Positions 29,882-32,275 of a DNA stretch of 64,000 nt are shown here, piece after piece (position 1 is the first letter of the stretch; each line of letters opens with the position of its first letter). The notes under the pieces were generated by a model, which had not been told where the DNA came from, ran no database searches, and saw only the letters and a program-made list of their open reading frames with translations. The translations under genes were made by a program, and so were the position numbers. The DNA is from Anaerolineae bacterium (GTDB taxonomy: Bacteria; Chloroflexota; Anaerolineae; DUEN01). The DNA is taken from assembly GCA_025060615.1 (NCBI GenBank), contig JANXBS010000007.1, forward strand, positions 62,001-126,000, in the 5' to 3' direction.

Positions 29882-32275
29882 ATGAATGTCTTGGTGATCG
29901 GCAGCGGCGGCCGGGAGCACGCGCTGGCCTGGAAGCTGGCCCAATCACCGCGCGTCGAGCGCGTGTTCGTCGTGCCGGGCAACGGCGGAACCGATCCCCG
30001 GTCTCGGATCGCGAATCTTGGGTCTCGAGAGGCGTGTTTTCAATCCAAAATCCAAAGCCCGCAGCCCGCAATTCCTGTCGAGGGCGATTTCGGCGATCTG
30101 ATCACCTTCGCCCGTCGAGAGCAGATCGGGCTAACCGTGGTCGGCCCGGAGGCGCCGCTGGCGCAGGGGATCACGGATGCGTTCCAGGCGGCGGGGCTGC
30201 GCTGCTTTGGGCCCTTGCAAGCCGCCGCACAGCTAGAGGCATCCAAAGCGTTTGCCAAGGACTTTATGGCGCGACACGGGATCCCTACGGCTCGCTACGC
30301 TACTTTCCGCGAGTATGAGCAGGCATTAACCTATCTGCGCCATGTGGAGCATCCTGTGGTGGTCAAAGCATCCGGCCTGGCGGGAGGCAAAGGGGTGATC
30401 GTGCCGGCTGACCGGGAGGCGGCGGAGGCCGCGCTGCGTCAACTGATGGTCGAGCGCGCCTTCGGCGCGGCTGGCGATGAGGTAGTTATCGAGGCGCGAT
30501 TGTACGGACAGGAGGCCTCGGTGTTGGCCTTCTGCGATGGTTACCGCGTGGTGCCGATGCCAGCTGCTCAGGATCACAAGCCTGTATTCGACGGCGACCG
30601 GGGTCCCAATACGGGAGGCATGGGCGCTTACGCGCCTGCACCGTTGATCACTCCGCCGTTGATGGAAGAGATCGTACGCACGATCCTACAGCCAACCGTA
30701 GAAGGGCTGCGGGCCGAAGGGACGCCTTATGTGGGGGTGCTCTATGCCGGCTTGATGATCACGGACGCAGGGCCGAAGGTGTTGGAGTTCAACTGTCGCT
30801 TCGGCGACCCGGAGACGCAGGTGATCCTGCCGCTTCTGGAGACGGACTTAGTAGACGTAATCGAGGCCTGCCTAGAAGGTGCCCTTGACCGGGTGGCCAT
30901 CCGCTGGCGGCCGGGCGCGGCGGTGACGGTCATCGCCGCGTCGGAGGGATATCCGGGGAGCTACCCGAAGGGTCGTGAGATCACCGGTGTAGAGGAAGCG
31001 GCCGCGTTACCAGGGGTGCTCGTGTTCCATGCAGGCACTCGCTGGACGGATGATGGCCGGCTTCTCACCGATGGCGGACGCGTCCTGAGCGTCACTGGCC
31101 TCGGCGACGACCTGCCGCAGGCCATCGCCCGTGCGTACGAAGGGATCCGCTGCATCCGCTTCCAGGGCATGCACTACCGGCGAGACATCGGCGCCAAGGC
31201 GTTGATCAGTGGTCCACTGCCGGCATTCCGAAATCCGAAATCTGAAATCCGAAATCCAATCACCTATCGCGAGGCGGGTGTGGACATTGAGGCTGCCCAT
31301 CAGGCTGTCGAGCTGATGAAGGAGGCCGTGCGTGCCACGTATGGGCCGGAGGTGCTCTGGGGCATCGGCGCATTCGGTGGGCTGTTCGACGCCTCCGCGC
31401 TAAAGCAGATGACATCGCCGGTGTTGGTTGCCTCGACAGACGGCGTGGGCACCAAGACCAAAATCGCTGCCGCCCTGGGCCGATTCGATACCATCGGCCA
31501 CGACATCGTCAACCATTGCGTGAATGACATCCTAGTCCAGGGCGCTCGCCCGCTCTTTTTCCTCGACTATATCGCCTCCGGGAAGCTGGACCCAGAGATG
31601 GTCGCCTCGATCGTATGCGGTTGCGCGGCTGCCTGTCAGGCCGCGGGGTGTGCACTGCTAGGGGGCGAGACCGCGGAGATGCCGGGTGTCTACGCGCCGG
31701 GCGAGTTCGATCTGGTGGGCACCATCGTCGGCGTGGTGGACCGCCCTAACATTGTGGATGGGCATACCATCGTCCCCGGCGATGCTATCATCGGCCTGGC
31801 GTCGTCTGGGCTGCATACGAACGGCTACTCGCTGGCACGCCGCGTGTTCGAAGGATGGGACCTGACTGCAGCCGTCGCTGAGCTGGGCCGGCCTCTAGGT
31901 GAGGCGTTGCTAGAGCCTCACCGCTCATATCTGGCCGAGGTGCGCCAGCTATGGGATGCGGGGATCGTCATCAAGGGGATGGCGCACATCACTGGTGGTG
32001 GGCTGATAGATAACCCGCCGCGTATCCTGCCGCGAGGCGTGGCAGCTTACATCCGACGAGGAAGCTGGCCCATCCCGCCCATTTTCCAGTTGATTCAGCA
32101 GCTCGGACGGATTAGCGAGGCGGAGATGGCTCGCGTCTTCAATCTGGGCATAGGCCTGCTGCTCATCGTCCCAGCGGACCAAGCCGATTGCGCCTTGGGC
32201 ATCCTGGGCGAGGAGGCCTGGATCGTAGGGGAGACGATCTCGCGCGGTGATGGTCCGGCGGTGCGGATCGAATAG
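29882..32275 (+). CDS. purD: PurD-PurM fusion: GAR synthetase + AIR synthetase
   Basis: The 797-residue protein joins two steps. Residues 1-440 are PurD, an ATP-grasp enzyme: VLVIGSGGREHALAWKLA, VVKASGLAGGKGVIV, DRGPNTGGMGAYAPA and VLEFNCRFGDPETQ. Residues about 460-797 are PurM: VLVASTDGVGTKTKIA, HDIVNHCVNDILVQGARPLFFLDY (cut as HDIVNHCVNDILVQGA), LLGGETAEMPGVYAPGEFDLV and HITGGGLIDNPPRI. Bacterial PurD and PurM are usually separate, and in eukaryotes they are fused with GART. A 26-residue insert (38-63) in the PurD N domain and the linker between the enzymes both come from 7-bp repeats. The start is ATG 29882, four bases after purF. Confidence 0.95.
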   Translation: MNVLVIGSGGREHALAWKLAQSPRVERVFVVPGNGGTDPRSRIANLGSREACFQSKIQSPQPAIPVEGDFGDLITFARREQIGLTVVGPEAPLAQGITDAFQAAGLRCFGPLQAAAQLEASKAFAKDFMARHGIPTARYATFREYEQALTYLRHVEHPVVVKASGLAGGKGVIVPADREAAEAALRQLMVERAFGAAGDEVVIEARLYGQEASVLAFCDGYRVVPMPAAQDHKPVFDGDRGPNTGGMGAYAPAPLITPPLMEEIVRTILQPTVEGLRAEGTPYVGVLYAGLMITDAGPKVLEFNCRFGDPETQVILPLLETDLVDVIEACLEGALDRVAIRWRPGAAVTVIAASEGYPGSYPKGREITGVEEAAALPGVLVFHAGTRWTDDGRLLTDGGRVLSVTGLGDDLPQAIARAYEGIRCIRFQGMHYRRDIGAKALISGPLPAFRNPKSEIRNPITYREAGVDIEAAHQAVELMKEAVRATYGPEVLWGIGAFGGLFDASALKQMTSPVLVASTDGVGTKTKIAAALGRFDTIGHDIVNHCVNDILVQGARPLFFLDYIASGKLDPEMVASIVCGCAAACQAAGCALLGGETAEMPGVYAPGEFDLVGTIVGVVDRPNIVDGHTIVPGDAIIGLASSGLHTNGYSLARRVFEGWDLTAAVAELGRPLGEALLEPHRSYLAEVRQLWDAGIVIKGMAHITGGGLIDNPPRILPRGVAAYIRRGSWPIPPIFQLIQQLGRISEAEMARVFNLGIGLLLIVPADQADCALGILGEEAWIVGETISRGDGPAVRIE
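30043..30070 (+). repeat. Four tandem 7-bp repeats inside purD
   Basis: Two copies of ATCCAAA are followed at once by two copies of GCCCGCA, exactly 28 bases. They are the core of a stretch (29993-30070) encoding a 26-residue insert absent from typical PurD. The insert length is a multiple of three, so the frame is kept. Confidence 0.75.
31228..31255 (+). repeat. Four tandem 7-bp repeats (CCGAAAT) in the PurD-PurM linker
   Basis: CCGAAAT, CCGAAAT, CTGAAAT, CCGAAAT run without a gap for 28 bases, then CCAAT. They encode the linker FRNPKSEIRNP. The unit is 7 bp and not a codon multiple, so adjacent copies are read in different frames. Confidence 0.85.

Follow-up and report, generated by a model that had tools for sequence, protein, structure and literature searches.

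Seven-base repeat arrays in frame in core genes of Anaerolineae, and a probable repeat-derived linker in a fused purD-purM gene

Introduction

Among the longer simple repeats of many bacteria, those with a heptanucleotide unit have long been recognized as the most frequent, and we know of no explanation for the number seven. Here we ask how two such repeat blocks came to lie in frame within a core purine enzyme, and whether one of them could have become the joint of a fused protein. The locus lies in a window of 64,000 nucleotides, the whole stretch of DNA analyzed, from a 3.86-Mb draft genome (G000; 73 contigs, 97.8% complete) of a member of the Anaerolineae (Chloroflexota). An initial annotation had described the blocks as spreading STRR-like repeats that invade the gene and may have helped to create its linker.

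Results

The window encodes a bifunctional purine enzyme whose single frame opens with an ATG and continues through GARS_N, GARS_A and GARS_C to AIRS and AIRS_C (Pfam; Table 1). Judged by their translations, the upstream neighbor resembles purF, and those downstream resemble purN and purH. Both blocks of the initial annotation (30043-30070 and 31228-31255) proved real, with coordinates correct within 1-2 bases. We scored period-7 arrays with +1 for a match and -2 for a mismatch at a threshold score of at least 10, and these two are the sole arrays to reach it in the 64-kb window. The tandem units are exactly seven bases long in both, as in STRR. Block 1 codes for residues 54-63 in a loop of the PurD N domain, after PGNGGT. 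Block 2 codes for residues 449-459 (FRNPKSEIRNP) and, as had been proposed, is the linker at the joint between PurD and PurM, where the peptide reads SGPLPAFRNPKSEIRNPITYR.

Table 1. Coordinates of the fused gene, its repeat blocks and the dnaN array. Positions without a prefix refer to the window.
Feature	Position	Strand	Remarks
Fused purD-purM gene (GAR synthetase + AIR synthetase), 797 aa	29882..32275	+	single open frame; Pfam GARS_N/A/C, AIRS/AIRS_C
Block 1: AATCCAAAATCCAAA + AGCCCGCAGCCCGCA	30042..30070	+	ATCCAAA x2 then GCCCGCA x2, in phase
Block 2: TCCGAAATCCGAAATCTGAAATCCGAAATCC	31227..31257	+	TCCGAAA x4.4, one change; PurD-PurM linker
First PurM codons	31258..31269	+	no own start codon; array abuts AATCACCTAT (relative L010: ATGAACCAGATCACCTAT)
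dnaN	C9:22779-24050 = L048:2779-4050		sliding clamp gene
dnaN GGACGAY array, in frame	G000:C9:23156-23190 (L048:3156-3190)		between sliding clamp domains 1 and 2

A rival account is chance repetition within coding sequence. Codon shuffles yielded 0.14 (global) or 0.10 (local) score-10 period-7 arrays per window, and because of these expectations block 1 taken alone is only modestly unusual, with about 0.1 expected per window. This is the one point in favor of chance. Block 2 is certainly far beyond it, since its score of 18 was reached in 0 of 800 codon shuffles. Relatives were moreover hit again at the same sites, and for block 2 chance is refuted by the shuffles together with the class-wide excess of period 7 described below. 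As an account of the arrays, we therefore regard it as scarcely credible.

The loop that holds block 1, measured from PGN to VVGPE, has 59 residues here versus usually 40-47 in relatives, and alignment with human GARS (2qk4) leaves a gap of 16 residues. The net insert is therefore about 16-19 residues, so the reported insert is present but its size of 26 residues was too large. An AlphaFold2 model built with 13 sequences (mean pLDDT 79.8, pTM 0.56) predicts pLDDT below 50 at residues 48-68, around block 1, and 441-457, around block 2. Both blocks probably lie in disordered, permissive stretches, one an N-domain loop and the other an interdomain linker. Neither of the window's own blocks forms a hairpin (folding z +0.9 and +1.4); the palindromic architecture described below is thus known from relatives and other loci, not from these two. 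As the genome is a draft, the copy number of the arrays depends on the assembly.

Counting the unit through the 3.86 Mb of G000 placed ATCCRAA arrays at only four places, all within open reading frames: the two in purD-purM, one at C20:28570 in a gene for a PMT_2-type membrane protein, and one at C22:63330 on the minus strand of the copper P-type ATPase gene copA (L007:570-3014, minus). The copA array region corresponds to a 16-residue insert relative to CopA 3j09; the repeat-derived peptide, FGFRAPDFTSAQFAIR, lies downstream of the DKTGT motif. GGACRAY is the larger family, with 24 hits at 17 places versus 0 for the reversed control, and with 104 versus 28 hits at two mismatches. Its copies often lie in inverted pairs, as at C1:178870/178913 and C13:34894/35013. 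The genome thus carries other heptamer arrays beside the two blocks, and each of the two unit families is dispersed, as in STRR.

The coding status of an array was judged by codon scores on both of its flanks; mere location within a long frame did not count as coding evidence, because stop-to-stop frames are long at this G+C. By codon scores and open frame, GGACRAY lies in frame in genes at 7 of its 17 places, with dnaN counted despite a low right-hand score. Among these seven only dnaN was compared with relatives, and some of the others may be native sequence.

In a 464-kb sample of G000 at score 10 we found 8 arrays of period 7, 7 each of periods 6, 14 and 21, and 0-4 of any other period, with 0 in shuffles. 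At score 14 there were 3 arrays of period 7 versus 0-1 for the others. The excess of period 7 is weak in G000 and clearer in its relatives. Across 1.42 Mb of Anaerolineae DNA, a set that is partly purD-centered, we counted 119 period-7 arrays, with no other period from 4 to 13 exceeding 20, and 207 kb from 14 further genomes, sampled at a distance from purD, held 17 versus at most 5. Period 7 is the commonest tandem repeat period across the class. Period 8 came second (20 arrays), perhaps from transitions within heptamer arrays.

GGAGATT gave 0 hits in G000, 399 in G103, 256 in G072 and 123 in G041, with controls near 0. This is not one family spreading: there are many units, each local to one genome. 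Of the two findings that would have refuted the initial annotation, an insert conserved in all PurD of the lineage and a genome free of other copies, neither came true. An exact 11-mer inverted partner was found within 150 nt for 35 of the 119 arrays and at 700-1000 nt for 2. Strong folding was seen in relatives (L060, z -6.8; L062, -6.0; L156 N-loop, -6.3; L151, -10.3). In mfd of G147 (L199:7380-7440) a palindromic GTCGAAG heptamer element lies in open frame between Helicase_C and TRCF, and its hairpin has a folding z of -4.1.

Such frequent inverted pairing would be expected if the arrays were copies of a small mobile element, a REP- or MITE-like palindrome moved by a RAYT-type transposase with the heptamers as its arms. 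The hundreds of recurrences of one unit in some genomes and the strong folding of some junction elements (L060, L062 and L151) point the same way, and PMC6749651 suggests transposition for some heptamer-derived satellites. However, no end sequence, unit or length is common to the arrays, no target duplication was recognized in an unsystematic look, and five genomes (G000, G003, G051, G052 and G065) carry arrays and gave no match to a Y1-type transposase. In G000 itself a search for Y1-type (RAYT/IS200) transposases returned no PF01797 match in the draft, which leaves RAYT/IS200 unsupported as the mover there. We consider a mobile element unlikely.

Arrays recur at the same purD sites in different genomes. 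The junction carries one in L008 and in nine other genomes (L009, L060, L062, L142, L144, L147, L151, L166 and L172), with differing units: ATTGCGT in L009, GGAGATT in L060 and L062, TCCAAAA in L142 and CTACCGT in L144. N-loop arrays occur in L008, L147, L156, L160 and L168, and a weaker one in L009; the N-loop insert is not conserved across the PurD proteins of the lineage. Mapped onto a tree of 89 PurD rows, junction arrays require at least 9 state changes, N-loop arrays at least 5, arrays immediately upstream of purD at least 9 and the fusion state at least 10. In two Anaerolineae genomes very long heptamer arrays stand just upstream of purD (L194:2663-2781, 119 bp; L028:1316-1478, 163 bp). 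Two arrays of L196 and one pair of L052 were rejected as in-frame cases, since they lie upstream of conserved domains and are probably intergenic.

Fusion and array do not always coincide. Among 21 fused genes scored, 5 have a junction array and 16 do not, and five split purD/purM pairs also carry one. L061, also fused, has a short plain linker, DIGRQQSAYAVAGVDL, at the place where its close relatives L060 and L062 have an in-frame palindromic array. The arrayless majority and this empty fused gene led us to reject the array as the invariable cause of purD-purM fusion. Comparison within the L060/L061/L062 clade indicates that the linker array is separable from the fusion, and the simplest reading is that in L060 and L062 the array entered a pre-existing fusion.

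The window's gene suggests a different history. It belongs to a clade of 12 rows (SH-aLRT 99) in which it alone is fused. PurD identity to the nearest relatives is only about 79%. In L010, of the same clade, the TGA of purD is followed by GCC and then by purM, ATG AAC CAG ATC ACC TAT; in G002 (L009) a different junction array contains a stop. In the window the purM ATG is missing and the array continues directly into AATCACCTAT. Because this is the sole fusion among the 12 genomes and the array occupies the place of the purM start codon, the array probably made the purD-purM fusion in this lineage. The initial suggestion that the repeat may have helped to create the linker is thus supported for this lineage; arrays are not the general cause of purD-purM fusion.

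If the array gains or loses one or two heptamer units, the frame closes before PurM, so the state could in principle switch. This, and the probably disordered stretch in which the linker lies, would suit arrays that are selected, either for the flexibility they lend the joint or because their copy number switches PurM in and out of frame. Many fused relatives nevertheless do with short non-repetitive linkers, and units and sites vary freely among genomes. Moreover, purM lacks an ATG of its own ahead of its conserved start region, and slippage would therefore cost purine synthesis. Selection for the arrays themselves is in our view very unlikely, more so than a mobile origin.

The dnaN gene offers the cleanest case of an in-frame array with empty sites in relatives. 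The array, with CCATCGTC downstream, is missing in 29 of 29 aligned relatives, including three from the same family, and its region shows no significant folding (z +0.8). At about residues 205-225, dnaN has a second low-complexity stretch, TPTPVPPPASGGGAGVGDV, missing from the solved clamp aligned. In-frame arrays thus occur in several protein genes, in purD twice, in dnaN, in copA and in others, membrane proteins among them. Core genes of Anaerolineae are hit by heptamer repeats without disruption, and here a repeat joins two purine enzymes.

Discussion

We start from the observed period, units, inverted pairs, recurrent sites, empty sites and in-frame state of the arrays. The likely explanation is that both blocks are STRR-like heptanucleotide arrays of a kind abundant in Anaerolineae and kept where they are tolerated, and that block 2 became the linker of a new fusion. 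Such arrays would originate and lengthen through slippage by seven bases; palindromes would probably result from template switching on a fold-back wherever inverted copies pair. The arrays appear at many places and would be retained between genes, or in frame and free of stops in surface loops and interdomain linkers; the distribution of the arrays suggests selection for permissive, open-frame sites. Block 1 would be one such array, in the variable N-domain loop of PurD. Block 2 would have landed on the purD-purM junction, replaced the purD stop and the purM start codon, and become the disordered linker of the new protein, a direction of change suggested by the anatomy of the junction and by the tree. 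No function of the array itself need be invoked. Against this explanation stand the modest rarity of block 1 alone, the unfolded state of the window's blocks, the lack of arrays in most Anaerolineae fusions, the draft assembly and the distance of the relatives.

A bolder proposal is that Anaerolineae harbor an unrecognized form of selfish DNA that codes for protein. The process behind it, with no regard to sequence, would make heptamer arrays, frequently paired in inverted orientation, and seed them where the loops and linkers of essential proteins are permissive, and so would build new linkers and fusions. We hold this to be doubtful, if less so than the mobile element. Whichever applies, the class offers many natural replicates, that is, orthologous sites with and without arrays and with differing units in essential enzymes. 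The birth of seven-base arrays, the way they turn palindromic and the supply of linkers for new gene fusions by junk repeats become testable there. For annotation, peptides such as NPKSEIRNPK, TTDDGRW and SNLQSPI should be taken as repeat-derived.

The arrays belong to a known class, the STRR-like heptanucleotide simple-sequence repeats, and the initial view that such repeats are lodged in frame within a core enzyme is supported. What is new is the class-wide, often palindromic, in-frame colonization of core genes; a limited search of the open literature returned no report of heptamers in Anaerolineae genes. Heptanucleotide repeats are described from cyanobacteria, Xanthomonas and Beggiatoaceae, in 2-26 copies with four preferred in Xanthomonas and Nostoc, and share with ours the seven-base unit, the dispersal through the genome and units that vary among species (PMC4692102, PMC4679880). 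Those repeats are found mainly between genes, with an excess in non-coding DNA, whereas here several occupy the reading frames of core genes, and many are arranged as inverted pairs. Slippage of a polymerase-sized segment has been proposed as their origin (PMC4679880, PMC4692102, both citing an earlier survey).

The heptamers in stem P6b of the cyanobacterial tRNA-Leu intron are likewise degenerate, pair into hairpins and vary in copy number, but form the stem of an RNA intron and not a protein-coding loop or linker (PMC3488679). The (GATAGRA)n satellites of Chloroflexus aurantiacus come from the same phylum and also represent a single heptamer expanded genome-wide, although in another class and with another unit, and the available text on them mentions no in-frame insertion (PMC6749651). 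The Rickettsia palindromic elements are palindromic DNA inserted without a frameshift into many unrelated protein genes, at sites where the product tolerates them, but they measure about 150 bp, fall into defined families with a conserved peptide and have no heptamer tandem structure (PMC10969869). Our arrays form no conserved palindromic family of about 150 bp, as units and lengths differ by locus and the window's blocks are unfolded. By analogy, the Anaerolineae arrays resemble the Rickettsia palindromic elements in their effect and not in their type of sequence.
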